Position numbers and translations under genes: made by a program
From: Mya arenaria
Lineage: Eukaryota; Mollusca; Bivalvia; Myida; Myidae
Assembly: GCF_026914265.1 (NCBI RefSeq)
Contig: NC_069124.1
Coordinates: forward strand, 55,097,589 to 55,161,588
Length of the DNA: 64,000 bases
Direction: 5' to 3'
Notes under the pieces: model-generated
Seen by the model: only the letters and a program-made list of their open reading frames with translations
Database searches by the model: none
What the model was told of the DNA's origin: nothing
Shown: piece by piece, positions 3,528 through 63,549 of the stretch
Layout of the letters: the number at the start of each line of letters is the position of its first letter
Position numbering within the stretch: the stretch's first letter is position 1

Positions 3528-5934
3528 ATGAGCGCTCCCTCCCCATTTGTTAAGAAAGTTCCTGAGAATCTAAAGTGTATTGTTTTGGCCTTAGATGCAA
3601 ATGCAGGAGCAGGTAGCAGGTTCAGGTTACTGATAGATTGGCCAAAAAAGCGGGATCTGTGAGTCGGTAAATAAACAGTATTTTTGGCATAAATATTAAA
3701 GAAATTTGCGAAAACGCTACTAGTTTGTGCTTGTTGAGCGATTGCACCTTGGAGATAACTTCCTTCTGAACATGCATGTGACGTATACAGTTGTTTTATT
3801 GAAAGAATCTTGTAGATCTGAGCTCGTTTCCATACATATGTCTCAATCCGAAATCTGCTAACCTTCATAACTTGTGAATGATAAAGATTGTATGAAATTT
3901 TAAAATATTTAATATGTAAAAAGAAACGGCTTAAAGTGGGTTATTTGTCTATTATGTGTATCATAGAGTACTAGAACACTTGTTATGATTCTCGGTCCAA
4001 TAAATCACCCTAGGGACCAAATTGCTCGAATCAGGTAGCTTGACTGGCCAAAAATGCTGTCCAAATACCAAGTTGCTGTGCTATTCACAACCCTTACAAG
4101 TGTACTTTTCCACAAAAATTGGACAAAACAATTACAATTAGTTTTTATATTTCTTTTTTCTCTCGCAACTTTTAAACAGGTCAACAAGTACAGTTTATTT
4201 TAAATGCGTTTCTAATCTCTACAAATTCTGTATTTAGAAGTGTTTTGCTTCGTTTGAAATATACTAAAACAAATTAACAATTTAAGGCTTTTTACACAAT
4301 TTTGGAGGCCCTGGCCCCGTTCACAAAAACATGATAAAACACTGATACTTAATCAGTTAAGTGCCTTAAAGATTAATTAAATATATTTGTGAATTTGCTT
4401 TAATGTTTAAAGGATAAATAATGTAAAGATTGTAAAAGGACCGTGACAGGAAATTGTAATACTCATACGCATGTATTTGTTCTTCACAAATGTTTTTGTT
4501 TTGGTGTTTCAGGGCAAGGTAAATATAATGAGGACTACTTTGCGACTTTTACACAGCAAGCCGTACAATTATTCTACCTGAACCTGTCCACCAGTGAAAT
4601 CTTGGCCAGACGTAGGAATCTTAGGAATGATGTTTCGTTCGCCAATGATGTCTTAACACTAACTGTGAGTGCAGTGTTTAAAATTGAAACTCATACTCAC
4701 TTATAAAGGTAGTTCTCTGATAGCTCCATTAACCTTATTATTCAATTGTAATGCCTGGTAACTCCATACAAACTTGTCTGAAAGGTATTTGTCATGTTCA
4801 TGTCAGGCTCTTGTTCTTATTATTTTATTTTATTTATACAATTTCCTTTTGATAATAACCATAAAATTAAGTTTATCTTATTTTTTTTGTCGTTCCAGAT
4901 GACTATATGCTCGTGTTTTTGGCGCCCTGCAGCTTCAAAGAACTGCCAAATGTTTTCTGAGGCTCTTTACGATGCAGACATTTCCTTGGGTATGTCCATG
5001 GGAACCACTACTAATGTGTGATGGCCATGGATGCTGGCTCGGTATGTGACGTTATCTTTTCATGCCATAATTAGTATGCTAAGCCGTCCCAAATTATTTT
5101 CTTAGCATTATACTTTCTTTGGAAATATAATAAAATGCCGTGGACACACCAATGCCTATAAACTACATTAGACTCTTTAGTGTTTGATAAATTAACAAAC
5201 CTTGAATAACCTGGCCTGACAAAGTTCAAATTAGTATAATGTGAACTGTTCATTTCTATATAAATTATAGTGTTATTGATAAAACTGTCTTGTTCTACTT
5301 ATTTTTTGTTCGGGACATAACTTCAAAAATCTTGGATGTATTGACTTCAAACTTTATATACAAATGGATGCCATTTAGGAGAATTGTCATGCACAAGGAC
5401 CATAACTCCAGGTGCAATATCATTTTAATAATTGCCCTTTGTTAATTGTTACAGTTTTTTTTGTCTAGCATACACATGTAATATAAAATTTTAAGGTATC
5501 AACTTAAAACTTCACATTCTTTGTTATCCTTTGTCGTAATACTCATTCCGAGTGTTCTTAATTCGGCAGAGATATGGCAGTCAGTCATTGATTCATGTAT
5601 TTATTCACTTATCACTCACTCAATCTCTCACCAACTTATTTATTATAATCATTAATTAATGTATTTGTTCAATCACTCATTAATTGATGTAATTGTTTAT
5701 TTGTTTTTTCATTCATCAGTTTTTATTCATTTATAACATGTTTTCATATTGATATGATTTTTTTATAAAGCTCACCTGTACCTTGGTCATCACTACAACC
5801 AGAGGTCAACTCGTCCATTCAATGGTCCTCCAATGAGCTCATGTTCGACATTCCTGTAGTCCCTGACACCTCCCCAACTGGCTACCTGATGCACTCCAAC
5901 ACCCCTTTCACAGTTTGCAACAGCTGCCTTTGAC
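3528..5934 (+). CDS. Unrecognised gene, tentative exons
   Basis: Four blocks look like exons. Block a runs from an ATG at 3528 to about 3658 (reads MSAPSPFVKKVPENLKCIV onward to DWPKKRD, then GTGAGT). Block b is 4513-4664, between TTTCAG and GTGAGT (NEDYFATFTQQAVQLFYLNL...). Block c is 4899-4989, between TTCCAG and GTATGT. Block d starts near 5772 and ends at a TGA near 5934 (...TSPTGYLMHSNTPFTVC...). Blocks b and c join in phase 0. Block a does not join b in frame, and c joins d only in a shorter alternative frame, so an exon is missing, a site is misjudged, or the gene is decaying. I do not recognise the product. Block d is the founder-like copy of the tandem cassettes that follow. Confidence 0.35.
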
Positions 5935-8900
5935 AACAGTAGCAACGAAAGATAAGTTTCATTTGGTTAAATGTTTTCAATTTTTGCAGCATCTAGTGGA
6001 TCTTATTAGTTTTCATGAAACAGTTTAGCTAAAGATGAATGTAAAACTTAATAGGTCACATTATAATAATACAACGAAACCTACAGGGACAAGCCCAGTG
6101 TTCGAGGATTAACAGGTCTCAAGCCACAGGTACTGACATCAACTTGTGTTTCAACACTTCTTCTGACTGAAAACCCTGTTCTGTCGATCCCAATGCCAGT
6201 GGAATTTTGGATAATCTATGGAGTTTGTGTCAAATAGCTAGTGTTTTTAACCAAAGCGACTTGACATTTTTTCGTTGTTAAGACGAAATTCTTCCTTGGG
6301 AGCGCCCTTAGAGGTTCCGAATCTTTTTTTCATCATTGGCATCGTAAGAACAATTAGGGGTTTCAGTTGAAAACAGTTGACCATCGGTTGCTGTGACGAA
6401 GCTACAGAGTAACACTTTACTATCTAACGTTTGGGCTTGTGTGCATTCAGTTTTTTTAATGTCTTATGTAGAATGAAATATATTATGTTCTAATTTAATC
6501 AGGCATACTAATTATCAAACATCTCTTATAGTTTATACCCTGATGTCTCCCAAACTGGCTACCTGGTGTACTCCAACACCACTCTCACAGTTTGCACCTG
6601 CTGCCTTCGACAACAATTGCAATGAAACAAATGTTTCATTTTGTTAACTGTTTTTGATTTTTGTAACACCTAGTGGATTATCTTATTTTTAATGAAAACT
6701 GGTTAGCTAGAAATGAATGTTTAACTTAATAGGTCACTTTATTTGTTATAATAATACATGAAAACTACCGGGTCAAGCTAAGAACTCGAGGAATAACAAG
6801 TCTCAAGCCGCAGGTACTGACATCAGCTTGTGTTTTAACTCTTCCTCTGGCTGAAAACCCTGTTTGTTCTGTCGATTCCAATGCCAGTGGCATTTCGGTT
6901 CATCTATGGAGTTTGAGTCAGATAGCTAGTGTTTTTAACCAAAGCGACTTGACACTATTTCGTTGTTCTGACGAAATGCTTTCTCACTCACTCACTCGAC
7001 CACTCACTCGCTCGCTCACTCACTCGTTCACTCACTCACTCACTCACTCACTCACTCACTCACTCACTCACTCACTCACTCACTCACTCACTCACCTTTT
7101 CTTTTTACTTATATCATAATTATGATTCATGTATTTGTTCAGTCACTCATACAATTTTATTCATTTGTTTATCTATTTAGTATTTTTATTTATTTACATT
7201 TTTTTTTTAAATTTGATTTCTTTTTTAAGCTAAACTGTTCCTTGGTCAATACAACAACTGGACTGTTCAATGACATCATCATAGTCAACTCATCCATTCC
7301 TTAGTTCTCCAAGTAGCTCATGTTTGATGTCACCATAATCTGTGATGTCTCCCCAGCTGGCTAACTGATGCGCTCCAGCACCCCTCTCACAGTTTGCACC
7401 AGCTTCCTTGGAGAACAGTTGCAATGAAAGATAAGTTTAATTTGGTTAAATGTTTAAATTTCTGTAGCATCTTAGTGGATCTTCTGAATTTTTATGAAGT
7501 TTAGCTAAAAATCAGTGTTCAACTTAATAGGTCCTTTCATAATAATACGATGCAAACTACAGAGACAAGCCCAGAATTCAAGGATTTACAGGTCTAAAGC
7601 CACAGGTACTGACCTAAGCTTGTGTGTCAACACTTCTCTCAGACTGAAAACCCTGTTTGTTCTGTCGATCCCAATGCCAGTGGCATTTCAGTTCATCTAT
7701 GGAGTTTGTGTCAGATATCTAGTGTTTTTAACCGAAGCGACTTGACATAATTTTGTTCTTCAGACGAAATGCTTCCTCAGAGGCGTCCATAGAGGTTCCG
7801 AATCTTTTTCATCATAGTCATCGTAAGAACAATTGGGGGTTTCAGTTGTAGACATGTTGTGTGGCTTAATACTGGCTTCAGTTATTCATGGGTTGCTGTG
7901 AAAAATCTACAGAGTTACAGCTATCTAAAATTTGGGCTCATGTGCATACAGTATGTTTAATGTCTTATGTAGAATGCAATTCATTATGTTCTAATATAAG
8001 ATACCTGATGCACTTTAACACCCCTCTAACAGTTTGCACCAGCTGCCTTGGCCAACAGTTGCAATATAATATGTGTTTTATTTGGTTTAATGTTTTCAGT
8101 TTTTGCAACAACTAGTGGATCATCTTAATTTTCAAGAAACAGTTTTAAATTAGCTAAAAATGAATGTTAAACTTTAAAGGTCACTGTATATGTTTATAAC
8201 GATAGATGAAAACTACAGGGACAAGCCATGCATTGAGGTATTTACCCTGTCTCATGACACAGGTACTGCCAGCAGCTTGTATTTCAACTTCTGTCAGACC
8301 GAAAACCCAGTTTGTTCTGTTGATCCCAATGCCAGTGGCATTTCGATTTATCTATGGAGTTTGTGTCAGATAGCTTGTGTTTTTAACCGAAGCGACTTGA
8401 CAATATTTCGTTGTTCAGACATAATGCTTCCTTTGAGGCACCCATAGAGGTTCCGAATCTTTTTTTTCATCATTGTCACAATTGGGGTTTCAGTTATAGA
8501 CAGTTGACCATGAGGTGCTATGACGAGATACAGAGTAACGACTAACTTATGTTTGGGTTTGTGTTCTTACAGTTTAATAGTTGTGTTATGTAAAACAAAA
8601 TGTATTATGTTCTAATTTAATCATAAGGCATACTTATAATCAAACATCTCTTGTAGTTTATACCATAATGTCTCCCCAACTGGCTACCTGAAGCACTCCA
8701 AACACCCCTCTCAGAGTTTGCACCAGCTGCCTTTGACAACAGTTGCAATGAAACATAAGTTTCATTTTGTTTAAGTTTCATTTTGTTTTATAAATTTTAT
8801 TTTGTTAACTGTTTTAATTTTTGTAACACCTAGTGGATTATCTTATTTTTAATGGAAACATATTAGCTAGAAATAAATGTTGAACTTGATAGTTCACTTT

Positions 8901-9330
8901 GTATTTTTATAACAATACATGGAAACTACTGGCGGAACACTTCCTCTGACTGAAAAACCTTTTGTTCTGTTGATCCCAATGCCAGTGGCATTTCAGTTCA
9001 TCTATGGAGTTTGTGTCAGATAGCTAGTGTTTTTAACCGAAGCGAGTTGACATTATTTCGTTGTTCGGACGAAATGCTTCTTCGGCGGCAACCATGAAGG
9101 GTCCGAATCTTTTTTTCATCAATTTCATCATAAGAACAATGTGGGGTTTCAGTTGAAGACACGTTATGTGGCTTAATACTGGCTTTAGTCGACCATGGGT
9201 TGCTGAGAGAGATCTACAAAGAAACGACTTTCTAAGGTTTGGGCCCATGTGCATACAGTCTGTTTAATGTTTTATGTATTGTTCTTAACCCCAATCATTG
9301 GGCATACTACGTATCAAACATTTCTTGTAG
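5585..9330 (+). repeat. Tandem array of five degenerate exon cassettes
   Basis: A unit of about 650-800 bp recurs five times. Two landmarks show it. The words around CACAGTTTGCACC fall near 5909, 6586, 7389, 8030 and 8714. The words around CCAATGCCAGTGG fall near 6191, 6878, 7671, 8326 and 8979. Each unit carries a remnant of block d (the TGYLMHSNTPLTVCTSCL-like peptide) and a conserved noncoding part ending in a TTTTTTTCATCAT stretch and a TTGTAGTTTATACC junction. Units starting near 5585 and 6965 are long forms that keep the upstream exon part; the others are shorter. Stops interrupt most copies, so they are probably pseudo-exons. Confidence 0.8.
6979..7095. repeat. (CTCA)n microsatellite
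   Basis: Imperfect then perfect TCAC/CTCA repeats. They sit inside a long-form cassette and account for its greater length. A short degenerate version occurs at about 5600-5640, in the matching place of the first cassette. Confidence 0.95.
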
Positions 9331-9546
9331 TTTGTAGAATGTGTGGCTACATCAGTTCAGCAAGAAGTTGGAATTCAATGGACAAGATGCTCTGCATGTA
9401 TTGGTTTTGCAGGAATGATGTGCATTCTGCGGCAGAAACATCCAGTCCTATGTGCTGCTGGCGAATCCATGTTACTGGAAGCGTCCCTCCCTGCAACATC
9501 AAATGATACCATTTGCAACCGTTGGGATGTCCCTTGCAAACGGTAG
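9331..9546 (+). pseudogene. Exon-like remnant after the cassette array
   Basis: After TTTCTTGTAG, an open frame of about 71 codons reads FVECVATSVQQEVGIQWTRC onward with five or six cysteines and ends at a TAG at 9544-9546. Its first bases coincide with the junction that ends each cassette, so it may be the exon that followed the ancestral cassette. No family recognised and no clear donor seen. Confidence 0.3.
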
Positions 9547-12320: not shown

Positions 12321-15300
12321 TTATTCAGGTTTTTTCTTGGGTTCTGCTGGGTACTGGGAATTCAGGGGAACCGTATTTAGCAACATGACATGGCGCTGGT
12401 ACTGTTTACTGGCACGGAACTGGATGTCTGTCCCATGAAGACGGTCCAGCACACCAAGCACTCCAAAATTTTGGTTGAATCTGAAAAACATACATGATAT
12501 TTTTATAATACAACAATATGTAAAAAGTTAAGATTTGATAAGCTGATTCCCATATCTCAAACACCCAGTTAACCTAACATTTCTTATATTGCTTTCAAAG
12601 AACGTGGACATCCATACTTGGGTACAGACAAATAACTGTTAATTAAAGCACAGTACTAAAAGCAGCTACTTTGAAAGCTTATGTCTAGAAAATGTCTAAT
12701 CATTTCTTATATGTTTTCTTCGGGGAAATATCATGTAATTTTCACTGCTCTTACAGATTTCGGTTCCAGAGTTGCTTTTTAAAAGTTAAGTTCATAGAAC
12801 TGGGTTTAATTCGTTTCAAATGACTACATCAAAATTGCATTGACATATGATGTTGTTTTTCTCGCAAATTTCCCAATTAAGATTTTTCTTGCCCTTAAGC
12901 ATAAAGGAAACAGGAAAGTTTCGTTGCAAGATCAAAATATATAGTATGACTCATTAAAACACTGCTTTCTGTGATCAGTTAGTGAAATAAATTGCAGTTT
13001 CACACCTCTACTATACTGATGTTATGTTTTGTTGCAATTTCCTTATATGGTAAAACAATACTATGATATGTATGATATGCTAAAATAAAACTTTGGCCTA
13101 CTTGAGGTGGTGGTAATCGTGAGCCTCGGGTGAAGGCAGGAGAGGAAGGTGGTAGCCACAGTGAGAGATCGTCGTTGACAGGAATGCCAGGATGAACCAC
13201 AGCCATGCAGTTGCTGTGAAAGTATAGAAATGAAACATTCGATCTATGGGAAATAAAATAACTTCAAACAAAAGCATTATTTAACAGATATTAGTGCCAG
13301 AGTTATGTGCTTTGCTATGCATGCATGTACTGTCATTGGCAGCATGGGTACAATGTTACATTTGAGTTACATTTGAATATCTTCAATGTTTTTTTTTAAT
13401 TACTGGTAAGATAAAGCTTTTGCTTGACAATGCAGACGATGACACCAAGGCTATCAGACCATTTTCTTTTTTAAATACAGACAATGTGACATTTTAATTT
13501 GTGTATCACGTGTAACTGCTGGAGGGGTGGATATGATAGCTACAGTGGGGGATTGTGGTCAACAGCAACCGAAGGCTGAACAACAGTCACGCAGTTGCCA
13601 AGCAAGTATAGAAATTCAACTATTTGAGCTACACCATAGACATCCCCATTATACATCAGAATTTCGGACGTGACTTATAAAATGCACTTTGCACAATGTA
13701 CCAAACATTGTCACAGACCACACAGACCATAACTCCCGATGTAAACAACAGCACCCAAGTCCTCATGCACACTTAGGTTTAGAGGTACAATTCTAAAAAT
13801 GTTTTGCTCCATTATCTGATTTAATACATAGTTATAATTTAACAAATTCATTTTAATCAGTCATATCGATAATTCAGTCATGTGTATATTTCTTCATTCA
13901 ATGCTAGCATAAATAGATGATTTTGAACAACAACTAGTAATTCAACTATTTTTATACAAATAATCAAATGCCCGCAAGCATTGGTCTAGTCAATTGTTTA
14001 CCGAGCTTTTTCACATTCTGGAACTAATATATATTTATATATGTGTAACAACATATCTTTAGCCATATATTAATGCAAGAATTGGAGCGTGTTCATCAAA
14101 ACGTCTATTCGATGAGTGATCTTAAACAACATACCAAGATGTGAGGCCATGATGAGGGGCCCGAGGGTTGGCGGGAGAAAGCTGCTGATCACATGCTCCA
14201 CTGGGTGGGTATACACGGCAACAATACTTATGGGGGCCGTCCACTCATGGTGGAGCTTGTGGATGTGCTTGTACAGTCGAGGGTGGTGAAGCAGCCTGGA
14301 AAAATATTGTTTTATTTAGATCTGTTACACATTAGAAATTCACAATATGATTTATATTAAAATATAGTGCAATCTCCTTTATGTTCAATCAGAATACTAG
14401 TGATTAAAATAACCAAAAACCTTCATTTGAAAGAGGTCTTTAAATTTAAAATTTAAAATTGATTATATATCTGCAATATAAGATTCATTGCTGTATACCA
14501 CAGACGTCTTATATCCTTTAACACTCTGTCTTACCTATGTGAGTAATAGAAGCAGAACTCTTCCACAAAGGAGAATATAAGAATCTCCAGCATGACCCAG
14601 GTGAACGTTGGCAGCTCCCCGCCTATTGTCGACGACCCTCCTCGTAACTGGAAGAGGTAGGATGCCACAAAAATAAACGGCACTCCCACAACGAGCATGT
14701 TGAACACCACCTGTCTGACTGCCTTCCACAGTTTCGGCATTTCCACCTGGTAAATTACAATAAAAATTCAATTACATAATTCAAACCTCAGTTATATCGA
14801 TGACATGACTTTTGTACATCAAAGTTTCAATCAATTTTCAGAATTGCATCTTTAACCAGTTGTTTTACTATTTGTTCAGTACTCTCTGCTTTAACCAAAT
14901 TTCTTGGGACTGACTTAAGAATAAGTGCAAATTTATAGAGGATAATTGTTTGTTTCAGTGAAAATTCCCTATATATTTTATTTTAGTGAGTACTTAAACC
15001 TAGGTTAACGAGTGGCTTTGTCACATTTGAAATACTTATGGACAAGGTTAAAAAGCGTTTTAATGAAATGGCCATAGCCAAACTATTTTTTTCTTTGAAA
15101 AACAGACTAGCTAAAAATAACATTGTAAAATTATATACTTTAACATCCTCCTGTATTTTGTACTTGAGTAGACATGCTGGCACACCATAGACATCCAACA
15201 GCATAAAGAAACTGTTGCCAAGCCAAAACACTCCTTGTGTCACTACAAATGTTCCTAAAATGAAAAAGAAAATCCATTATAAATTGTAAAAGGGATTTGA

Positions 15301-17825
15301 ACAGCTGGAAGAAATGCTTCTATTGCCGTTTTGGGTTTCATATTTGATTTACAAGTTCATTTTTATTATTTAGGGTTGAAGAAAGATGAGGACAGCGACA
15401 GAGAAGTGATGAGATTCAATATTCTCTCGATTCATTCCCCTATTCAATTTCATGTTATTTAATCAAGACAATGGGCAGCACAAGCAGATGCTAATGCTTG
15501 TCTTTTTCCAGTCATCAGAGAGAATAACTTAACTTAATTGAAAGTAAATTTTAACAGGGCTTCCATTAAACATCAATGGCACCTTAGCATATTCACAACC
15601 TATATCATTATAAATACGCTAGAGTGCCGAGGATGCCATTCAAGGAAGTTTGGATGTATATTACTCCTAAGAAATAAGATTTCTGATAAAACTTACAAAG
15701 GAGAAAGCTTGGAAGTTCAAAGTAATGAATAAAATCTTAGACTTGAACTTCTATGTTTGAGAGAAAAACTTCTAAAGCTGATGACAAGGAAGCTCAAACT
15801 TTCACTTTCAAATTCTTAATGTAAGCCCCGAACTGTAAAATATAAAACAGAGTTATGGGTCTTTCTACATAAAGTAAAATTCCGGTCGTTCGAACAAGCG
15901 GTCGTTCGGGAACCGGCAGTCCCTCGAGGCTGGAGCTTGGTCCCAAACATTTTTCCTTCTTTTTTCATATAAGTATACCAACTCTGCATCGAAACCTAAG
16001 TATGTCGAGGAGTCGAGCAATATAGTCTGTCCCAAGTGCATAAATAATGCACAAAACCTTATGGCTCCCTAGAGGTAATAATTTCACACTTTTATTCCAA
16101 AATAAACTAACAATAGCTAGGTGTTAAATTTTTCGCAAGTTGTAAAAATTGCAATTAAAGTTGAAAGGCAATTTGATAAGGTGTGAAAACCCATTTATGC
16201 ATGACCGATAGTAGTTGATAAGGGCATTTAAGAAGTTTATGAGGAGAAGTTAATTGTGGGAAATCTAAATGAGTAATAAAAATATGAATAAGCGCTACTA
16301 TATCGAGCCAACATCGGAATCTCTGAAAAGAATTCCTGCTTGTCACTTTGCTTTTCAATATGGCAATTTTGTAAAAAAATAAACATTTGTATTTATTCAT
16401 TTATCGATATATCTTTTACATTTTACATTTAGTATACTTTCAATATACGACAGCCTTTGAACATATGAGCAATTTCCACAAAGCAACACATATTCGGTGT
16501 CTTAAAACAGTCGGTTTGACGGCTTCAAACTTAAAATACGAGAGAGAAAAACGTGTGCATGATTCAAAAACATTTCTGCGAAGATATGCTTGAGTAAGTG
16601 AACAATTTATGAACTGGATCATAACTACCGATGAAACCTGACACTAAATGTGCTTAATGCGATATCCACGTTTTCTAGAGGTATGTATTCGAATGTTTAT
16701 ACACAGTGGATTATGCGCCATGAAAAGTGTGTCAGTGATGATGAGAAACACTTCGAAAAAAATGTGACGCTTTATGAGCGCAACGTGATTGAAGTCATTG
16801 GACATCGCCGGTTGGGTTCATGTCATGGATTGTAATTCAGTGAATTTTTTATGTTTTGCTCTGATAATTTTAGGAAATATAACGTATATGTGATATGTAT
16901 TGTATTTAAAGTTTCTATGTTGTATGTGCAACGATATATAAATTATTAAAAAAAGTCCACGTGATTCTAGATCAACCCTCGTACACTTAAAGATATTTCA
17001 TAACAAACTGGAAAATTGAAATTTGGGTCGTTCGAAACATCGGTTCCCTCGAGGTTTTGGCTCGGTCCCCGGCGTCCTCGAGCGATCGCAGTTTTACTGT
17101 ATGTGTATTATCTCTGGCAATGGTGTTATTTAAATATCTTGAACCCTTTTTTGGTTAAGGCTGATGCGAAGAGCTTTTAAATACCAACAAAGACACCTGG
17201 AAGGCATTACCTGGACATTTTTTTCTTCCATAAACAGACAACTTAATATTATTATAAAGTTAATTATATATCTCAGAGAGTGAAATCATTCACAATTAGT
17301 TAAATCATTTATGACTCCATGAATAAATGATCCATTACCAATACAGCAGAACCAGAAGTCATTCTCCTTTCCCCAGTGTGTGTACATGTAATCCCAGCAG
17401 CTCTGCCAGAAACTTCCCGTGGCACCCCACAGACGATGGATTTGCCTGGAAATTGAAATACAGGTATAACAGGTATTTTTAGTTTTACATTCACCTAAAC
17501 AAGTGTTTATTTTCTTGTACAACAGTCAATATTCAAACATTCTAAAAGGAACACACATATATATTTCAAATCAATTGGCAAAAAAAAACAACAGTAGGTG
17601 ACAAAATAAAATAAAACGATAATTCTATTTAACATTTACCTGGTACTGTACCTACCAATGAAATGAATTTCGAGCAGCAGCAAATACCAGAAGGCATGAA
17701 CCCATAATATACAGGGCTTTCTTCACAGAGTCCATTATTCGCCCCATCTTAGGGCCCTTGCTCTGGCTCTGGCTCACCTCTGCTGGCAACCCCAAAGCTT
17801 CTGATGTGTCTCTTAAGTCAGCCAT
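12321..17825 (-). CDS. FAXDC2: FAXDC2-like fatty acid hydroxylase, copy A
   Basis: Seven exons on the minus strand: 17656-17825, 17339-17445, 15139-15254, 14535-14746, 14135-14295, 13102-13213, 12321-12480. All have GT-AG borders and matching phases and give 345 residues from MADLRDTSEALGL to KKKPE. The protein has several hydrophobic segments and the diiron histidine boxes of the sterol desaturase/fatty acid hydroxylase family: HRLLHH (201-206), HKLHH (214-218) and HDYHH (287-291). The order and the ELPTF and SHCGYH motifs fit FAXDC2, an ER membrane enzyme related to C4-sterol methyl oxidase. The family oxidises sterol or lipid carbons with O2 and cytochrome b5; the substrate here is unknown. 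No stop or frameshift breaks it. Exon 5 differs from copy B at five residues. A 1.2-kb MITE sits in intron 2 and a LINE about 430 bp upstream of the start codon. Confidence 0.93.
15872..17099. mobile_element. 1.2-kb TA-flanked MITE, pogo/Tigger-like ends
   Basis: The left end is AAGTAAAATTCCGGTCG; the right end read inward is CAGTAAAACTGCGATCG. Both are followed by TCGAG- and CCGG-rich subterminal sequence. TA flanks both sides (15870-15871, 17100-17101). Copy B has the intact empty site, CCATATGTGTATT, near 36845. The inside holds only short open frames (16387-16593, 16650-16835) with no recognisable transposase, so it is non-autonomous. It lies in intron 2 of FAXDC2-like copy A. Confidence 0.85.
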
Positions 17826-18256
17826 TTTTGCTGTAATGAAGAAATTAAGATCAGATAGAACTGTTTTGTTTATTTGTTGTTTTAAAGTTTATCTTTATAC
17901 TTTAATAATAACCCTTTAGTCATAAAAATGTTGGCACTTAATATTAGTTTTTATATATAATTATCATATTTTTAATCAAAACATCAATTATTATTTTCAA
18001 ACATTTATTGAAGTTCAAAATGCAGCAGGTCATTTTCATGTTCACTACATGTCTTAGTTGATAATGATTGTCAAGTTGATATGTGTGCAAATAACAGTGA
18101 TCAAAATCATTTGTTATTGCAGATTTTGAAATTACATACAATCATGTATGTCTAAGCTCCACTGGCTCCAATTTTTCTTACAAGCTTAAGCTATAATCTA
18201 TAAAATGTGACCTGTTTCTCAGGTACTGAGTGACTGACTGCGCAAATAAGAAAGAA

Positions 18257-18308
<52 letters not shown>

Positions 18309-18957
18309 TCTTTATTTAGAGAAGGTATAAACGCATTATGACATAATTACAGGTTCAACCATAACAACATTATATTTACAATAAAAAAAAAACAAAAAAC
18401 AAAAAACAAAATGCATTTGGTAAATCATAAAACATCTGCATCGCACTTATACATTCGTATACAAGAACCATTGATGTTTTGGATGTAATTATTCTATACA
18501 AATCCTGTTTAATTAACATAACAATTTAAGTTATTTCAATATACATCATGTACACGCCGACAGACACTCAATAAAACACAACAATTTATAAAACAACAGT
18601 TATTTCAATCTTTAAGATAATGAAAAGATAATATACCTTTTTGAAAATAATGATATGCACATTTCAAGAGGTGCACTTTGTAATTATGCTTAAATGTGTT
18701 TAACTTTTTTGCATTTCGTATTTCATCCGGAATAGTATTCCAAACCTTCATACTGTAGTACGAAAAGGAATCCATGAAATAGTTAGTTCGCGGTGTTTGT
18801 ATCAATATATATGCAAAAAGCTACAGAAACATGCTCAGTAGCAAAACGTTTAAACATAAACCCGGTTTAGTGGCAATGGGCAAACGCCAAAGACATAGAA
18901 CACAAAATCACAAACAAGAAACATACAAAATCTACAAACAGCACAGTACATAAATAC

Positions 18958-18988
<31 letters not shown>

Positions 18989-19481
18989 TTGGTATGTTTA
19001 TCAAGAGTTGTTAACCCCAAAGCTTCTGATGTGTCTCTTAAGTCAGCCATTTTTGCTGTAATGAAGAAATTAAGATCAGATAGAACTGTTTTGTTTATTT
19101 GTTGTTTTAAAGTTTATCTTTATACTTTAATAATAACCCTTTAGTCATAAAAATGTTGGCACTTAATATTAGTTTTTATATATAATTATCATATTTTTAA
19201 TCAAAACATCAATTATCATTTTCAAACATTTATTGAAGTTCAAAATGCTGCAGGTCATTTTCATGTTCACTACATGTCTTAGTTGATAATGATTGTCAAG
19301 TTGATATGTGTGCAAATAACAGTGATCAAAATCATTTGTTATTGCAGATTTTGAAATTACATACAATCATGTATGTCTAAGCTCCACTGGCTCCAATTTT
19401 TCTTACAAGCTTAAGCTATAATCTATAAAATGTGACCTGTTTCTCAGGTACTGAGTGACTGACTGCGCAAATAAGAAAGAA

Positions 19482-19530
<49 letters not shown>

Positions 19531-20175
19531 TCTTTATTTAGAGAAGGTATAGACGCATTATGACATAATTACAGGTTCAACCATAACAACATCATATTTA
19601 CAATGAAGAAAAACAAACAAACAAAAACAAAATGCATTTGGTAAATCATAAAACATCTGCATCGCACTTATACATTCGTATACAAGAACCATTGATGTTT
19701 TGGATGTAATTATTCTATACAAATCCTGTTTAATTAACATAACAATTTAAGTTATTTCAATATACATCATGTACACGCCGACAGACACTCAATAAAACAC
19801 AACAATTTATAAAACAACAGTTATTTCAATCTTTAAGATAATGAAAAGATTATATACCTTTTTGAAACTAATGATATGCACATTTCAAGTGGTGCACTTT
19901 GTAATTATGCTTAAATGTGTTTAACTTTTTTGCATTTCGTATTTCATCCGGAATAGTATTCCAAACCTTCATACTGTAGCACGAAAAGGAATCCATGAAA
20001 TAGTTAGTTCGCGGTGTTTGTATCAATATATATGCAAAAAGCTACAGAAACATGCTCAGTAGCAAAAAGTTTAAACATAAACCCGGTTTAGTGGCAATGG
20101 GCAAACGCCAAAGACATAGAACACAAAATCACAAATAAGAAACATAGAACAGCACATAAATCTACAAACAGCACA

Positions 20176-20225
<50 letters not shown>

Positions 20226-20716
20226 GGTATGTTTATCAAGAATTGTTAACCCCAAAGCTTCTGATGTGTCTCTTAAGTCAGCCATTTTTGCTGTAATGAA
20301 GAAATTAAGATCAGATAGAACTGTGTTGTTTATTTGTTGTTTTAAAGGTTATCTTTATAGTTTAATAATAACCCTTTAGTCATAAAAATGTTGGCACTTA
20401 ATATTAGTTTTTATATATAATTATCATATTTTTAATCAAAACATCAATTATCATTTTCAAACATTTATTGAAGTTCAAAATGCTGCAGGTCATTTTCATG
20501 TTCACTACATGTCTTAGTTGATAATGATTGTCAAGTTGATATGTGTGCAAATAACAGTGATCAAAATCATTTGTTATTGCAGATTTTGAAATTACATACA
20601 ATCATGTATGTCTAAGCTCCACTGGCTCCAATTTTTCTTACAAGCTTAAGCTATAATCTATAAAATGTGACCTGTTTCTCAGGTACTGAGTGACTGACTG
20701 CGCAAATAAGAAAGAA

Positions 20717-20717
<1 letters not shown>
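17789..20717. repeat. Tandem units of exon 1, 5' flank and LINE end
   Basis: A unit of about 1,224-1,235 bp starts at 17789, 19013 and 20248. Each begins with the first 13 codons of the FAXDC2-like gene (minus strand, MADLRDTSEALGL), then carries the gene's 5' flank (about 430 bp), a (TAA)n tail and the 3' end of a LINE. In the first two units the LINE is cut at about 18806 and 20030 and followed by about 200 bp of other sequence with a (TA)n run (18959-18984; 20178-20222). The third unit runs on into the full LINE. The two outer ATG copies (19048-19050 and 20283-20285) lack the rest of exon 1 and its donor. A nearly identical 65-codon open frame repeats at 17944, 19169 and 20404; it is flank sequence, not a gene. 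Confidence 0.9.
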
Positions 20718-20762
<45 letters not shown>

Positions 20763-23700
20763 TCTTTACTTAGAGAAGGCATAGACACATTATGACATAA
20801 TTACAGGTTCAACCATAACAACATCATAATTACAATGAAGAAAAACAAACCAACAAAAACAAAATGCATTTGGTAAATCATAAAACATCTGCATCGCACT
20901 TACACATTCGTATACAAGAACTATTGATGTTTTGAATGTAATAATTCTATACAAATCCTGTTTAATTGACATAACAATTTAAGTTATTTCAATATACATC
21001 ATGTATACGCCGACAGACACTCAATAAAACACAACAATTTATAAAACAACAGTTATTTCCATCTTTAAGATAATGAAAAGATGATATACCTTTTTGAAAC
21101 TAATGATATGCACATTTCAAGAGGTGCACTTTGTAATTATGCTTAAATGTGTTTAACTTTTTTGCATTTCGTATTTCACCCGGAATAGTATTCCAAACCT
21201 TCATACTGTAGTTCGAAAAGGAATCCATGAAATAGTTAATTCGCGGTGTTTGTATCAAAACTAAATATTGGTTTGAAGTTGATCTTAGAGAATAGCGTTC
21301 ATTATTTGCAAAGATGAGCAATTCAGACATATACCTCGGGGCCTTTCCATTCAGGGTATTATAGACAAGGGTTGCACAGTGATATTTACACCTGTCTGTA
21401 AACTGAAGTTCTTTATGTGCATTAAAGATGATCGTTTAGGAATTTTAAGAATGATTATTGCAGCCCTATTTTGCAAGGATTTAACTTTATGTAAGTAATT
21501 TGAGTTTCCTTTACCCCAAATATGACAACAATAATCTAAAATTGGAAGAATATATGCATTGTAAAACAAACGTTTCATCTCATCATTGAGGTAGGACAAT
21601 ATACGTTTCAAAAGTGAGGTTTTACAATTGATTTTTTGCAAACAATTTCTATTTGCGGACGCCATTTTAGGTTATTATATATAGAGATTCCAAGTAGTTT
21701 TTGCACAGTCACATTTTCTAATGCTGTTCCATCGATTGTAAGATTTAATTTACTAACTTGTTTTGTTTTATATATAATTCCGATAACCATACACTTGGCA
21801 TTAGAGGGATGCAATGACATGTTATTTATTTGGCACCAATCGACAAAGAGATTAAGATGTCGTTGTAGTTTACTTTAAATGGTGTTTATATTACTACCGA
21901 TTTCATGCAATGTTGAGTCATCTGCAAATAAATCGATGTTTATATTCGTATTACAAAGCGCAATTTCATTGATATATATATAAGAAACAGTAGTGGACCA
22001 AGAATGGATCCCTGGGGTACTCCTGATGATATTGGCAGCAAGACAGACTGTATGTTTCCGACATTAACTAATTGTTTTCTATAAGATAAGTAGGATTTAA
22101 AATACTTTATCAAATTTTCAGAAAAATGATACAAGTTTAATTTATGTATTAGTATTTTATGATCCACTAAATCAAATGCCTTTCGTAGGTCTAGAAAGAC
22201 AGCACATTTTTATTTATAACAATTTTGCCACTGTCAATATCTTTTACCCATGCATCTATTAAACTTGTTAACGCTGTACAACAGGAATGGTTTTACCTAA
22301 ATCCAGACTGTTTAGTGTGTATAATGTTTGTAGAATTGAAGTAATCTTGAACTTGGTTTGCAATGTGCCTTTCAAATATTTTTGATATTGTTGGCAATAT
22401 CGAAATTGGACGATATTTACTTGGATCATCTTTACATCCTAATTTAAACAATGGTAATACACGTGCAGTTTTCAAAGAGTATGGAAATATTCCGTTCATG
22501 ATACTCTTATTTATAATAGACGCAATGCATGGTGTGATGAAGTCACCGCAATGTTTAATTACTCTTGGGCCAATCTTATCTATCCCAGTTGATTTACTTA
22601 TATCAAGTTTATCAATGATCTGTTTTACCTCAAGTGGTGATATATAATTCAATTCGAACGTTTTGTGCCCTAATTTAACGTTTAGGTCGTATTTCAGTTT
22701 ACTAAAACGTTCGGGTTTAAAGGACGTTTTTTCTATTATATTTGATATATTGGTAAAGTGATTGTTAAGTTCATTAACAATATTGAGTCCTCCAGAAACT
22801 TCTCTATCACCAATTTGTAGTTGCTCCGGGAAAATTATCTTCCTATTTTTTCCAAATGAGAAATATCCTTTAAATTCTTCCAGATAAAGCTTGAATCCTT
22901 TTTATCCTTCACCACTTGATTAAAAAATGCCTTCTTACTTTTTTTAATTAAGGCTGTAATTTTATTTCTTAATATCTTATATTTGTCGTGTTCACCATTT
23001 CTATGGTACTCGTCTCTTTCAAATATCATTGTTTTTATTTCATCAGTAAACCAGTTAGGTTGAAAATCATGTATTACTCTTTTTTGCTTAATAGGAGCAT
23101 GTTTAGATAATACTTGATTTACAATAGAATAAAATACATTTAAAGCATCGTTCGGATTGACTATTGTTTCAATCATATCAACTCCTGATGAAATAAGATC
23201 ATTTTGAAATGACTGTTCATTGAAATTCTTAAAACATCGGTAAGATATCGGTTTGTGATCAATTCGTTCAAAAATTTTAAATTATTTATCTTATGTCTAG
23301 TGAAACATATTGGAAAGTGATCACTTAATGATAATGGTGTAACATGAACGTTAAGCACGTTTTTAATCAAATTTGTATAAATATGGTCAATTATCGTTGA
23401 TGATTTTTTCGTTACCCTAGTCGGTGTTGTAACGATATTTTTCAATTCGTATTTCACTGTAAAGTGAGACCATTTAGTATTGTCGTATTTTTTATCACTA
23501 AAGTGATTAATGTTAAAATCACCAAGAATATAATACTCTACATTAATTTACTAGTATCGGCAATGTCCCCTTGTGAGTCATACATGTCAATCCGCATTTG
23601 ACTCGAGTTTGGGGGACGATAAACAAAATTTACTAAAAACGATTTACATTGTTTTCCAATTATTTCTAACCAAATCGATTCAATATCAGCATACTCTATA

Positions 23701-23838
23701 TCATGTCGTCTATTATAGCTTATATGATCTTGTATATAGACTAAAAGTCCGCCACCCTTTTTATGGGAACGGTCTCTCCTCTCGAAAATGTAATGTGTTA
23801 TATGACGCAATTCATTCTGTTTATTTTCTGTTAAATCG
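20718..23838 (-). mobile_element. LINE, 5'-truncated, CR1/L2/Jockey-type
   Basis: A non-LTR retrotransposon read on the minus strand. From 23838 downward it encodes the end of an apurinic endonuclease domain (GGGLLVYIQDHI, FVNFVYRPPNSS-like, then SDHFPI near 23310), a linker (22835-23176), reverse transcriptase (SKSTGIDKIGPRVIK, YRPISILPTISKIFE near 22390, SGVPQGSILGPLLFL near 22000, FADD near 21925), and the C-terminal part ending near 21100. The 3' end carries a (TAA)n/(TTA)n microsatellite at about 20720-20762. It begins inside the endonuclease, so it is 5'-truncated, and several frame breaks split the ORF. The flank resumes at 23839 in perfect register with segment B, so B holds the empty site. 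The clade is inferred from motif style. Confidence 0.9.
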
Positions 23839-24092
23839 TTATAGATTTTGACCTTCGCCTGGATAAAATATGCGATATACGTCTACGCAATACTTTTTCA
23901 TAGATTCAAACGCAAAGAGTGATATGAATAATGTGAAAAGAGTAGGGATGCCAAACCTTCAGCAGGAATAAATTATTCTTGCAATGCTTAACTCTTCGTT
24001 CAATATAAATCTTTCCACAACGAACTGTCAATTTCGAAATGATAAAAAAGTATTTTGCTCGTTGTCATCCCAGATTGAAAACCCCGTACACA
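23839..24092. other. Resumed 5' flank of copy A
   Basis: Noncoding sequence matching 37997-38254 of segment B. In B it directly follows the block that in A ends at 18256. Confidence 0.85.
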
Positions 24093-24094
24093 GG

Positions 24095-24640
24095 GGCACT
24101 TATCTTGTAAATAAGTCAGGTCCGGCTGCGAATGTAACAGCAAATTGTGCTGGGCACATATCTTGTAGATAAGTCAGGTCGGGCTGCGAATGTAACAGCA
24201 AATTGTGCGGCACATATCTAGTAAATAGGTCAGGTACGGCTTCGAATATAACAGCAACTTGTGCTAGGCACATATCTTGTAAATAAGTCAGGTCCGGCTT
24301 CGAATATAACAGCAACTTATGCTAGGCACATATCTTGTAAATAAGTCAGGTCGGGCTGCGAATATAACAGCAACTTGTGCTAGGCACATATCTTGTAAAT
24401 AAGTCAGGTACGGCTTCGAATTTAACAGCAACTTGTGCTAGGCACATATTTTGTAAATAAGTCAGGTCCGGCTGCGAATGTAACAGCAAATTGTGCTAGG
24501 CCAGATCTTACAAATGATCAGTATGTCACAGTCAATTGTGTTGTTCACATATCTTGCAAATGATCAGGTCGGCTGCGTATGTCACAGCAAGTTGTGCTCG
24601 GCACATATCTTGCAAATGATCAGTATGTCACAGCAAATTG
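24095..24640. repeat. 58-bp tandem array
   Basis: The word TATCTTGTAAATAAGTCAGG recurs at 24101, 24159, 24215, 24273, 24331, 24389 and 24447, with degenerate copies near 24505, 24550 and 24605. The period is 58 bp (56 once). It is absent from the equivalent position of segment B. Its right end abuts the second LINE. Confidence 0.95.
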
Positions 24641-24724
24641 TGTTGTTCACATAAACGTGTAAATAGCGAGCTTGGCAGAATAAAGCGTGACGTTGATAAT
24701 AAATTCGATTCTTTCAAAGAGTCC

Positions 24725-25435
24725 ATGAATGCAGAGCTTACAGCAGACCTGGTTGATATACGGGATCAAATCTCATCGTTGTCTTCGTCTGTTCCCACTG
24801 TTTCTACTGGAGCACCGGAAATTTCTCAGGACAGGTCACTGAACATTGTTATTCGTAACCTACCTGAGAGTGTAAGTGAAAGTACACAGGCGAAGGTAAA
24901 TGGTATTATCAAAGATGGTTTGAGGCTATCAAATATAACCTTTAGCAGGGCTGATCGCCGCAAATCGTACACAACATCTAAGCCTGGTGTAGTCGTGGCA
25001 ACTTTGAAAACGCGGGCAGACAAACAGGCGTTAATGAAGGCCAAATCCCAGCTAAGAAACAGCCGCCAATTTTTAAATGTGTGTATAAACAATGATTTGG
25101 CTCCTGTGGAACGTGCGGCTAGTAGAAACTTTGCTACCATTTTGGGCGCTCTAAAATCGAACGATCTTGCTATGAAAGGATCTCGGGTTATACAGCGAAC
25201 CGATGATAGGCGCTGGAACCATGCACAAGATCAGGGGCCGCGCGACAATCGTAATTCACGCCGTGACAATTATAACATGGGAGATGGTCAGCGCAATAGT
25301 CGCGACAGTACTCGTGATTATCGGGATGACTGTTGCGAAAATCGCCAGTCGGACACACGGGCTCAGTGGAAAACTGTCAGCGGTCGAGGAGGTTCTCGTG
25401 GTAGCTTTAGCGGCCATAACCGTGGTCCTAGATAG
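24725..25435 (+). CDS. LINE ORF1 protein (RRM-type)
   Basis: The frame is open from at least 24641, but the first ATG is 24725. It encodes a short coiled-coil region (MNAELTADLVDIRDQISSLS), then an RNA-recognition-like fold (LNIVIRNLPESVSES, VVVATLKTRADKQALM), then an Arg/Gly/Asp-rich basic tail ending RGSFSGHNRGPR. This is the layout of type II LINE ORF1 proteins, which bind element RNA. The N-terminal part is missing. Confidence 0.75.
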   Translation: MNAELTADLVDIRDQISSLSSSVPTVSTGAPEISQDRSLNIVIRNLPESVSESTQAKVNGIIKDGLRLSNITFSRADRRKSYTTSKPGVVVATLKTRADKQALMKAKSQLRNSRQFLNVCINNDLAPVERAASRNFATILGALKSNDLAMKGSRVIQRTDDRRWNHAQDQGPRDNRNSRRDNYNMGDGQRNSRDSTRDYRDDCCENRQSDTRAQWKTVSGRGGSRGSFSGHNRGPR

Positions 25436-25444
25436 ATAAGCGCC

Positions 25445-28056
25445 GGGTTTTGGAATGTGCGAGGCTGGAAAACAGACGCTAATTCTGACAACCATATACT
25501 ACGATCTTCCTGTGTTCTAACTTTGAACTTAGATATAATAGGTATTGCCGTGAGCCATTTACTTGGTAATGAGGAGATCTATCTTGATGGCTATTCATGG
25601 TATGGCCATAATATGACACATATTCACAGGAACGCAAAGACTGGTTCCGGAGGTGTCGGTTTCTTTATTAGAAACTTAGTGAATTTAATGTATCAGTGGT
25701 TGACACTTTTAATGAAGGTATTCCATTACTGAAATTAGCTCTTAAGCATAGTGATATGGTTATTTTGCCTTGTGTCTGTTATTTACCACCCGAAAATTCT
25801 TCCAGAATGTTTGATGTAAACCATCTTTATGATTCATTAGTCTCTTTGATTTATCAATATAGAGATGTTGGAACAATGTATATATGTGGAGATTTTAATG
25901 GCAGATGTGGAGATAATGATCCATGATACTTTATCCGTGGTATTGATGATGTTATTGACCGGGAAGTTATTGACTTTACTATTAACAAGTATGGTGAACT
26001 GCTTTTAGACTTTTTAATTAATGCAAACATGTGTATTTAAATGGCCGAAATAACGCATGTAATAACTTTACTTCTGTATCGACTAAAGGAAAGTCTGTAG
26101 TTGATTATTGTTTTGTGAGCCACGAAAAGCTATCAGGTTTTGTACAGTTTAATGTAATTCAGGCCACAGATCTCATAAACAGATCGGGTATTATTATAAC
26201 AGATGGGGTGTACAATGATTGGTGTAATATTATTAGCCACAATATGAATAGTAAATTGCCAAGTTAAGTTAAACAATTTGGTTCTAATAACAAGAAACGA
26301 CGTCCCGGGAAACCTTGGTGGTCTGATACTTTAGCTGAGGTTTGAAATAACGTATGTATTGCAGAGAAGGCATGGCTATCTTGCGCTTATATTGGTATTA
26401 AGAAAACTCTTAAAACTGTTTATATAGATAAACGTAAACTATTTGATCGTCAAGTACAACGTGCTAAACGGTTATACTGGTTTACATTACAAACGCAATT
26501 GCTTGATGAATGTAATGTTGACTCTTCGAAGTTTTGGAAGTCAGTGGCTAAAATAGGTGTCAACGTCACAACCAGCAAAGTTATCCCAATGGAGGTTCTT
26601 ATTCCAGATGGTTCTATTTCCAATGATGTAAATACTGTCCTTAACAAATGGAAACATGATTTTAGCTCACTGTTTAATACTTCAAATTATTTATCTGTTG
26701 GCAGTCAACGTAGTGTTAATGATCGAAATAGTTATGTTACTAATGATGGAAATATGCATCCTTGTTTCATTGATGGTATATCAGTCCTGGAAGTCAGAAA
26801 TGCATTAATGTCTGTAAATAAAGGCAAAGCATGTGGTGTAGACAATATTCCTGTAGAGGTATTGAATAATGATGTTTCTGTTTCTTTTTTTCACGTACTG
26901 TTTAGCATTTGTTTTGACAAGGGTATTGTCCCGTCACTGTGGAGTAAGTGCATCATTAATCCTATACCTAAATCGTCCACGGCGGATAAAAGAGACCCCT
27001 TATCGTATAGGGGCATTTTCCTGGCGTCATCAATGTACAAATTGTATTGTCATGCCTTAAACAGCAGGCTAAGCAAATGGTCTGAAGAAAATAATATAGT
27101 TTCTGACGAGCAGAATGGCTTCAGGAAACGTAGAAGCACGACTGATCACATTATGTCTTTATATAATATTCTTGATACAAGGAAGACGTCTCGTAAATCT
27201 ACTTTTTGTGCCTTTATTGATTTTAGAAAAGCATATGATACTATTGATAGAAATATTCTATGGAATAGGCTATCCGATCTAGGTATTGGTGGTAAAATGT
27301 TTACAGCTTTAAAGTCCATTTATAATACGGTGTCAGGGTTAATTCCCTTAGAACTGAATGGTTTGATGTAGATTGTGGCCTTAGAAAGGGTTGTATTCTT
27401 TCGCCTCTATTGTTTAATTTATTCATTAATGATTTGTCAATTTATCTCAAATCGTTTGGTGTTGGTGTGCCTGTTAATGACGACAGAGTCTGTATTATTA
27501 TATATGCTGATGACATTGTACTGTTAGCCGAGTCCGCAGACGAAATGCAGTTACTTTTGTCTGCCTTGGGTGACCGGTGTCTATAAACAATATGCATGTT
27601 AATTTTACTAAGAGCAACATAGTCCATTTTAGACCCAATTCAGTATCACGTACAACTTATAATTTTGTGTCTGGCTCTAGTCAGTTAACAACGGTAGATA
27701 GATATACTTACCTTGGTGTGGTTTTTCACGAACACTTAGATCTAAATGTTACTGTCAAGTCTGTTGCTCAAAGTGCAAGTCGAGCTCTAGGTTTACTGAT
27801 TGCTAAATGTAAGGTTGTTGGAGGACTCCTATACGATGTATTTACAAAACTGTATGACACAGTTGTTTGGCCTGTTGTTGGTTATAGCGCTCCTCTTTGG
27901 GTATACCGGTCATACGCTTGTATTGAAGCTGTACACAACAGGGCTCAGAGATTTTTCCTTGGTGTTGGTAAATATACGCCTAACGATGGGTTGGCTGGTG
28001 AAATAGGTTGGAAACCCCCGATAGTTCGCCAGTTGAAAAGTATATCACTGTACTGA
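25445..28056 (+). pseudogene. LINE ORF2 remnant (endonuclease-RT)
   Basis: The endonuclease begins with WNVRGWKTDANSDNH and continues through GSGGVGFFIRNL and GDFNGRCGDND (about 25890). Reverse transcriptase runs 26499-27550 with GVDNIPVEVLNND, FIDFRKAYDTIDR, RKGCILSPLLFNLFINDL and the YADDIVLL catalytic box near 27505. The C-terminal part to 28056 has YTYLGVVFHEHL and a downstream LWVYRSY segment. At least five stops or frame changes (near 25732, 25926, 26265, 27370 and 27585) split it. No RNase H domain is evident. The motif style suggests an I/Nimb-related group, which is a tentative call. Confidence 0.8.
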
Positions 28057-30640: not shown

Positions 30641-31616
30641 ATGACAGCTGATTTGTCATTGGATGCATATGAGGCAGGTCATCTACTGGTCATACCTAAT
30701 CTTCATGTCAAGTTTGATGACCATAGGTCCGGGAATTGTTGAGTTATCACTCGGACAAGCTTTGGTCTTCCAACAGACCGACCGACATGTGCAAAGCAAT
30801 TATATAACCCCTCTGCTTCGAAGGGGGGCATAATTAAACTAGATGTTCACTGAAAACTGATACTTCAACTCATGCATTTAGTGACATATAAATTTCTACT
30901 GTCTACTATATAAGAAAATAAAATATGGACAATCAGAAAACCTTTTTTCAGCTTACAGTCACACTGACCTTGACCTTTGACCCACTGACCTCAAAATCAA
31001 TAGGGTTCATCTGCTGGTCATGACCAATAAGCCTACCTAGTATGAGGTCCCTGGGTCAAAGCGTTCTCAAGTTATTGATCGGAAACCGTTTTTCATGTTA
31101 AGGTCACACTGACCTTGACCTTTGACCCACTGACCTCAAAATCAATAGGGTTCATCTGCTGGTCATGACCAATACACCTACCAAGTATGAGGTTCCTGGG
31201 TCAAAGCGTTCTCAAGTTATTGATCGGAAACCGTTTTTCATGTAAAGGTCACACTGACCTTGACCTTTGACCCACTGACCTCAAAATCAATAGGGTTCAT
31301 CTGCTGGTGATGACCAATACACATACCAAGTATGAGGTTCCTGGGTCAAAGCGTTCTCAAGTTATTGATCGGAAACCGTTTTTCATGTAAAGGTCACACT
31401 GACCTTGACCTTTGACCCACTGACCTCAAAATCAATAGGGTTCATCTGCTGGTGATGACCAATACACATACCAAGTATGAGGTCCCTCGGTCAAAGCGTT
31501 CTCAAGTTATTGATCGGAAACCATTTGGTATTCCGACCGACCGACAGACAGACCGACCGACCGACCGACCGACCGACATGTGCAAAACAATATACCCCAC
31601 TTTTTTCAAAAGGGGG
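30640..31616. repeat. Tandem-core element with (CCGA)n ends
   Basis: Outer parts at 30775-30835 and 31530-31616 share GACCGACCGACATGTGCAAA followed by a short hairpin and GGGGGCATAAT. Between them lie four 145-bp repeats. The (CCGA)n run is at about 31534-31577. The layout of a tandem core plus a terminal hairpin fits bivalve non-autonomous helitron/helentron-type (HINE, pearl-like) repeats; this placement is inference. Confidence 0.6.
30960..31525. repeat. Four 145-bp tandem repeats with nuclear-receptor sites
   Basis: Units start at 30960, 31105, 31250 and 31395, an exact 145-bp period. Each contains TGACCT directly followed by TGACCTTTGACCC (30971-30983 in unit 1). Read on the other strand this is a DR1 site (GGGTCAAAGGTCA) and an extended monomer site (TCAAGGTCA). 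The copies are nearly identical. Confidence 0.9.
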
Positions 31617-37600: not shown

Positions 37601-38254
37601 CCAAAGCTTCTGGTGTGTCTCTTAAGTCAGCCATTTTTGCTGTAATTAATAAATTAAGATCAGATGGAACTGTTTTGTTTATTTGTTGTTTCTAAGTTTT
37701 CTTTATACTTAAAAAATGACCCTTTAGTCATAAAAATGTTGGCACTTTATATTATTTTTTATATATAATTATCATATTTTTTTGAAGATCAAAATGCAGC
37801 AGGTCATTTTCATGTTCACTGTACATGTCTTAGTTGATAATGATTGTCAAGTTGATATATGTGTGCAAATAATAGTGATCAAAATCATTTGTTATTGCAG
37901 ATTTTGAAATTACATACATGTATGTTTAAGCTCCTCTGGCTCCAATTTCTCTAACAAGCTTAAGCTATGACCGACTGCGCAAATAAGAAAGAAAAACGTT
38001 ATAGATTTTGACCCTCGCCTGGTAACGATAAAATATGCTATATACTTCTACGCAATACTTTTTCATAGATTCAAACGCAAAGAGTGATATGAATAATGTG
38101 AAAAGAGTAGGGATGTCCAACCTTCAGCAGTCATAAATTATTCTTGCCATGCATAAATCTTCATTCAAAATAAATCTTTCCACTGCGAACTGTCAATTTC
38201 GGAATGGTAAAAGAGTATCTTTCTCGTTGTCATCCCAGATTGAAAACCCCGTAG
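31617..38254. repeat. Segmental duplicate B
   Basis: Direct-orientation paralogue of 10336-24092. It has none of the three insertions found in A and so preserves their empty target sites. Intron 1 has an extra stretch (about 37280-37390) not found in A. Confidence 0.9.
33370..37634 (-). CDS. FAXDC2: FAXDC2-like fatty acid hydroxylase, copy B
   Basis: Seven minus-strand exons: 37465-37634, 37083-37189, 36279-36394, 35676-35887, 35270-35430, 34154-34265, 33370-33529. Each has exactly the length of its partner in copy A, giving 345 residues with no break. The histidine boxes HRLLHH, HKLHH and HDYHH are kept. Known differences from A include Ser/Pro at residue 8, Lys/Gln in exon 2, Arg/His in exon 7, and five in exon 5, where B has Gly225, Ala231, Asn240, Ile241 and Gly252. 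As I recall the vertebrate FAXDC2 sequence, it has Gly, Ala, Asn and Gly at four of these, so B looks more conserved. The upstream 620 bp are free of insertions. The role is as for copy A: an ER-membrane diiron oxygenase, substrate unknown. Confidence 0.93.
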
Positions 38255-63082: not shown

Positions 63083-63549
63083 TCCCGGTAAGGCATCTGA
63101 AAACACTCATTTTGTCATTATTTTATGCTATGATAACGAAAATGCAGAAAAAAATACATTTATTGCACAAAAAAAGTGTTTTGGTTTTAGTGGGGTTCGA
63201 ACCCACGCTGGTAAAGTCAAGAACAAAATAGAATACAGCCAGCTAATCCACATGGCCACCAGGACTTTAACAAAAGTGGTGAATATGTTGACATTTTAAA
63301 GATACATTAATAACATCACATGATAAGGTCAATCAACCAATCATACAACACCACAGCTGTAATTAATTTTCAATTGTGTTATAAATGCTAATGAAAACTG
63401 TGGTCTTCAAAGACAGTATTTGAGCAAATATCAACATTTGCTGAAGGGTTCCAGCTTTTGGTATTTTTGTTTTAACACTCCTTATGATTTGCCACACATT
63501 ATTTCGTAAAAAAAATGCATTTTACAAACCATGAGCAAGTCATTTTAAT
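63083..63549 (-). repeat. tRNA-like-bearing repeat, copy 2
   Basis: Inverted match of 38956-39420. Read on the minus strand it has GGTGGCCATGTGGATTAGCT and a full T arm (GTGGGTTCGAACCCCAC), better kept than in copy 1. It lies in the FHIP1 intron. Confidence 0.7.

Follow-up and report, generated by a model that had tools for sequence, protein, structure and literature searches.

Three tandem start-exon segments, joined to a truncated LINE, at the start of one of two sister genes in Mya arenaria

The window analyzed here, a 64,000-nt stretch of Mya arenaria DNA that is AT-rich (34.2% G+C), harbors two copies of a gene, A and B, in direct orientation and both on the minus strand. Self-comparison of the window placed their homology at about 10.35-24.09 kb for copy A and about 31.63-38.25 kb for copy B. 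In our own exon predictions (Table 1 for copy A), each copy comprises seven coding exons that are bounded by GT/AG sites and together encode an open product of 345 aa. The product scored above the cut-off of the Pfam family FA_hydroxylase (PF04116; E 2.5e-23, 83.4 bits vs. a cut-off of 31), and we tentatively call it FAXDC2-like after the human protein, with which it has the fatty acid hydroxylase domain in common. FAXDC2 is reported to be a C4-methyl sterol oxidase and a paralogue of MSMO1 (PMC10940096). Searching the PDB with the gene product gave no chain at E 0.01 or better. Pairwise comparison of the coding sequences of copies A and B yielded dS of 0.078 and dN of 0.011, and the resulting dN/dS of 0.144 indicates that the gene pair has been under constraint, a pairwise value that pools the time before and after the insertion described below. 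The notion of copy A as a pseudogene found no support, given that in A as in B none of the seven coding exons we predict is interrupted and all have GT/AG sites. The open frame of copy A is consistent with a still-working gene, and the insertion may be too young for decay to show.

Several other repeats are found in the same window. A second LINE-like stretch (24620-28056, plus strand) lies between copies A and B on the strand opposite to the first; self-comparison revealed no DNA match between the two, and its frame at 26346-27371 matched RVT_1 (E 4.5e-13) while the frame at 24620-25435 matched no Pfam family. A 58-bp tandem array (24095-24653; about 7 copies to 24509, followed by related 46- and 102-bp units) begins where the homology between A and B stops (24088), and a 145-bp tandem array (30958-31526; about 4 copies, 97%) sits just ahead of the start of copy B homology at 31626. 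In addition, a set of direct repeats, 0.2-0.95 kb long, 67-86% identical and overlapping in part, occupies 5605-9336, and an inverted pair of about 470 bp (38957-39418 and 63087-63548; 83% identity, 24 kb apart) is perhaps a dispersed repeat.

Table 1. Positions of the features discussed, numbered from the first base of the window
Feature	Positions	Strand	Description
Copy A gene	12321..17825	-	7 predicted coding exons, open 345-aa product
Copy A predicted coding exons	17656-17825, 17339-17445, 15139-15254, 14535-14746, 14135-14295, 13102-13213, 12321-12480	-	
First coding exon of copy A (MADLRDTSEALGL...NSFHW)	17656..17825	-	sole start of the three with whole exon and donor (GTAGGT)
Acceptor-like tract	17831..17860	-	ends ..TTCTTCATTACAG before CAAAAATG; repeats before 19055 and 20290; weaker before 37639 (copy B)
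Unit U1	17788..19012	.	gene/flank 17788-18256, (AAT)n 18257-18308, LINE 3' part 18309-18805, filler 18806-19012
Unit U2	19013..20247	.	gene/flank 19013-19481, (AAT)n 19482-19530, LINE 3' part to 20026, filler 20027-20247
Unit U3	20248..21258	.	gene/flank 20248-20716, (AAT)n 20717-20762, LINE 3' part continuing without filler
Filler, U1/U2 junction	18806..19012	.	207 nt, contains TA run
Filler, U2/U3 junction	20027-20247		221 nt, second copy
Weak candidate donor of a 5'UTR exon in the flank	18134..18139	-	GTATGT, G at 18139; corresponds to 37917 in B, next to a 4-base indel
Top-scoring cryptic donor following the U2 ATG	18631..18636	-	AAG/GTATAT, score 1.07 (G at 18636); repeat after the U3 ATG at 19857
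Longest LINE stretch	20717..23836	-	5'-truncated, frame-broken non-LTR retrotransposon; 3' end gene-ward, in the gene's own sense
A/B homology resuming past the LINE, then ending	23837..24088	.	matches about 37997-38253 in B
Weak candidate donor past the LINE	23951..23956	-	AAG/GTTTGG, score 0.51; same place in B AAG/GTTGGA at 38121, score 0.30
Empty site	37990..38003	.	copy B, from alignment to A

Copy A carries an insert, from 18257 to about 23836, that is absent from copy B. The flanks of this empty site are joined near 37996 in copy B, where the uninterrupted sequence runs from ..AAGAAAGAAAAA directly into CGTTATAG.., as is seen directly in the sequence. Read on the minus strand, the insert has the order of a LINE, with an (AAT)n tail facing the gene (18257-18308, missing in B), then reverse-transcriptase and endonuclease regions in several broken frames, the endonuclease region starting only near the far end, as in 5' truncation. 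Two of the five LINE frame pieces scanned matched Pfam families and three did not; the endonuclease piece (PF03372; E 2.2e-5, 24.8 bits) was barely over the curated cut-off of 24.5, and the reverse-transcriptase piece (RVT_1; E 2.5e-4) was under its cut-off. Among PDB chains, the best match to the LINE had an E of 1.3e-4 (8c8j), with LINE-1 ORF2 chains from E 2.1e-4. Judged against copy B, no target-site duplication was seen flanking the LINE; LINE insertions lacking such a duplication do exist. A search for LINE relatives in viral_contigs, with one 111-aa piece as query, gave two pattern matches, none confirmed. The start codon of copy A occupies 17825-17823 on the minus strand, and the distance from it to the tail is 432 nt. 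These data bear out an earlier note on this DNA in that a truncated LINE lies about 430 bp upstream of the copy A start codon and that copy B retains the empty site.

The gene-side part of this region consists of three tandem units (U1, U2 and U3), spaced 1225 and 1235 nt apart. Each unit comprises a portion of the gene, namely 12 whole codons plus two bases of codon 13, together with its 5' flank, the (AAT)n tail and about 0.5 kb of the LINE 3' part. Counting substitutions only, identity was 98.3% for U1-U2 (21/1221 differ), 97.9% for U2-U3 (21/1011) and 97.1% for U1-U3 (29/1011), far above chance; the gene/flank part differed at 2/469, 3/469 and 5/469 positions, respectively, and the LINE part at 11/496, 18/496 and 24/496. 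U1 and U2 each end in a filler that U3 lacks, U3 running straight into the remaining LINE. This filler matches neither the gene nor that part of the LINE which is present at the locus. Over 207 aligned bases its two copies have 8 substitutions, in addition to two indels (9 nt and 5 nt), partly within the TA run. Within the window, on both strands, only weak AT-rich matches to the filler emerged (best E 2.6e-4, for the TA-rich part); a 23-base filler piece had no exact match in viral_contigs or in genome_contigs, and folding, as DNA, of a 155-nt part of the 207 nt gave an unremarkable result (z -1.54). The earlier description of a 1.23-kb unit present three times is thus upheld in number and length, while the unit holds slightly less than the 13 codons claimed for it and the filler had been overlooked; the loss of the exon's normal donor from the two distal starts, also claimed, is plain, only U1 retaining the full exon with its GTAGGT. 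Since the same flank/(AAT)n junction recurs in all three units and copy B is free of the LINE, we infer a single insertion with copying afterwards, in agreement with the order already proposed, LINE first and amplification second.

What was multiplied depends on the sequence upstream of the ATG. In U1, U2 and U3 alike, an acceptor-like site, TTCTTCATTACAG followed by CAAAAATG, ends 5 nt ahead of the ATG, the longer context being ..CTGATCTTAATTTCTTCATTACAG up to the boundary and CAAAAATGG beyond it. Scored with general splice matrices not trained on this genome, the site reached 5.61, which places it among the best 0.7% of the 3282 AG sites on the minus strand (the acceptors predicted in A and B, 12 in all, score 2.48-9.41), and its counterpart in copy B reached 3.70 (top 2.1%). 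A score of at least 5.60 within 10 nt upstream was found for 11 of 1422 ATGs on the minus strand, of which three belong to the units themselves, leaving 8 of 1419 others, vs. 6 of 1542 on the plus strand; two of these eight (14740 and 35881) follow predicted acceptors of this very gene. With the threshold at 3.69 or above, the counts were 24 of 1422 on the minus strand, four being U1-U3 and B, and 17 of 1542 on the plus strand. With an acceptor-like site right before the ATG, another exon probably precedes the ATG exon, and the tripled piece is then probably for the most part a splice acceptor with the first 13 or so codons behind it, located in an intron, and not simply a promoter. For reference, 5'UTR introns are reported in about 35% of human genes (PMC2864569).

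The note had spoken of three copies of the start codon and of a promoter; the former stands, and the promoter label is not established in view of the acceptor-like site before the ATG in every unit. Its reading was that the flank is the promoter, with U2 and U3 starting transcripts that pass through LINE and filler, thus acting as decoy promoters or yielding aberrant 5' ends. We regard this as unlikely. Between A and B, the flank from -61 to -431 differs at 12/295 positions (4.1%) vs. 267/2840 (9.4%) in introns (p 0.0012), and this lower divergence would suit a promoter there; the flank is also almost unaltered among the units, with 2-5 differences in 469. However, low divergence among units can be explained by their youth alone, the 60 nt adjoining the ATG are not conserved (5/60 differ, for 17/355 over the whole upstream flank), and the acceptor-like site lies directly before the ATG. 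Elsewhere, 26 of 753 overlapping non-exonic windows had as few changes as the flank. With the acceptor-like site present in three units, we consider a role as decoy acceptors no less probable for the extra copies than one as decoy promoters. As a separate observation, the stretch of low A/B divergence at 17886-18256 (about 37695-37996 in B) may hold conserved regulatory sequence.

The donors bear on how the three starts would be used if the ATG exon is internal. The U1 donor scored 2.88, the gene's predicted donors ranging from -2.85 to 4.99, with two of copy A's six at -0.40 and -2.85. Exon definition is an established principle, and under it U2 and U3, without the exon's own donor, would mostly be skipped; the extra gene starts are probably idle. 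Among the minus-strand GT sites in the 785-790 nt following the U2 and U3 ATGs, the best cryptic donor outscores two of the six donors predicted for copy A, and U2 or U3 may thus occasionally serve as an exon of about 0.42 kb. Unspliced, the frame open from the ATG encodes 66 aa in U2 and 65 aa in U3. The candidate donors past the LINE, at 23956 and at the corresponding place in B (38121), would end an upstream leader exon and so speak for an internal ATG exon; they are weak, yet within the range of the gene's predicted donors. Only U1 combines the acceptor, the full exon and its own donor, and it is probably U1 that makes the normal mRNA.

The number of units might in part be an assembly artefact, two haplotypes of differing unit number or sequence having been strung together. 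The units are only 2-3% different, which is a plausible difference between alleles in a highly heterozygous animal. On the other hand, at least one filler-to-exon junction must be genuine sequence, and the two filler copies differ from each other by the substitutions and indels given above; we hold this explanation to be decidedly unlikely.

Taking these data together, we favor, with reasonable though far from full confidence, an account in which a LINE entered a 5'UTR intron, a filler-joined duplication and an unequal crossover followed, and U1 is the source of normal mRNA. A gene duplication would first have given rise to copies A and B. A LINE lacking its 5' part would then have inserted ahead of the ATG exon of copy A, oriented like the gene and most likely inside a 5'UTR intron. 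Next, a tandem duplication would have linked some point in the LINE to codon 13 via about 207 nt of filler, and an unequal crossover between the two repeats would have produced three units. As a result, U1, adjoining the gene body with acceptor, ATG, full exon and donor, would yield normal mRNA, whereas U2 and U3 would be mostly skipped, any leaky use giving rise to open frames only 65-66 codons long. We infer the succession of the two amplification steps from the middle unit. At position 18024 U2 equals U3 while U1 equals B; to the right of 18425, 10 sites group U1 with U2 apart from U3, and a single site groups U2 with U3 apart from U1; and the filler is common to U1 and U2 only. A middle unit with such a chimeric pattern is what unequal crossover between two repeats predicts. 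The pattern had a permutation p of 0.046 over all 28 sites of two kinds, which became 0.16 once the A-rich tract at 18383-18401 was dropped or counted once; a rank test gave 0.16-0.20, and unequal crossover as the last step is thus weakly supported.

Conceivably, the LINE pieces of U1 and U2 derive from a second LINE copy, with the (AAT)n tail of the earlier element as the priming site of its reverse transcription, and its cDNA end was joined via the filler to a sister-chromatid break at codon 13, generating the tandem duplication; we give this reading little credence. If true, this would represent a germline fossil of a LINE-bridged duplication outside mammals. The LINE part does differ more than the flank among the units (Fisher p 0.022 for U1-U2, 0.0005 for U1-U3 and 0.0014 for U2-U3), and with the A-rich tract dropped and equal rates assumed the p values were 0.15, 0.006 and 0.0015, respectively. 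We do not favor a second LINE event because this excess shrinks once a slower rate is allowed for the flank: with the tract dropped and the flank at half rate, they became 0.48 (U1-U2), 0.18 (U1-U3) and 0.065 (U2-U3). Least credible to us is the reading that the flank is a promoter with a short 5'UTR exon ending at the donor at 18139, leaders from all units being spliced to the complete ATG exon so that copy A would have three working promoters: its GTATGT stands at matching places in A and B and is the same in U1-U3, and the flank is conserved, but in A this donor has a low score (-0.68, within the best 12.9% of GT sites, vs. 2.27 in B).

The locus constitutes a small, readable natural experiment, in which one sister gene has three tandem start regions beside an untouched sister, the coding exons being open in both. 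It is well suited to testing how splicing or promoter choice handles repeated start exons, and it teaches that one should look for a splice acceptor before naming the sequence upstream of an ATG a promoter.

Tandem duplication with filler at the junction, followed by unequal crossing over, is a textbook mechanism. The likeness here lies in the direct tandem repeats, the filler between units, the presence of more than two units and, weakly supported, the chimera-like middle unit; in contrast, the filler is long (207 nt) and the unit crosses an exon-LINE boundary. In the titles and abstract beginnings covered by a partial literature search, no account of such an arrangement was found. For human L1, PMC7058536 describes L1-mediated tandem duplication, the tandem case being somatic and of 22.6 Mb, and reports insertions of 1-33 bp at the 5' junctions of L1-mediated deletions. 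The resemblance is that the duplicated segment is on the 3' side of the LINE and that the junction holds a truncated piece of LINE whose 3' end lies at the insertion site; the difference is that, here, another LINE would have to have inserted at the very same (AAT)n site. The component mutations are of ordinary, known kinds, and their combination at this locus is neat, not surprising.
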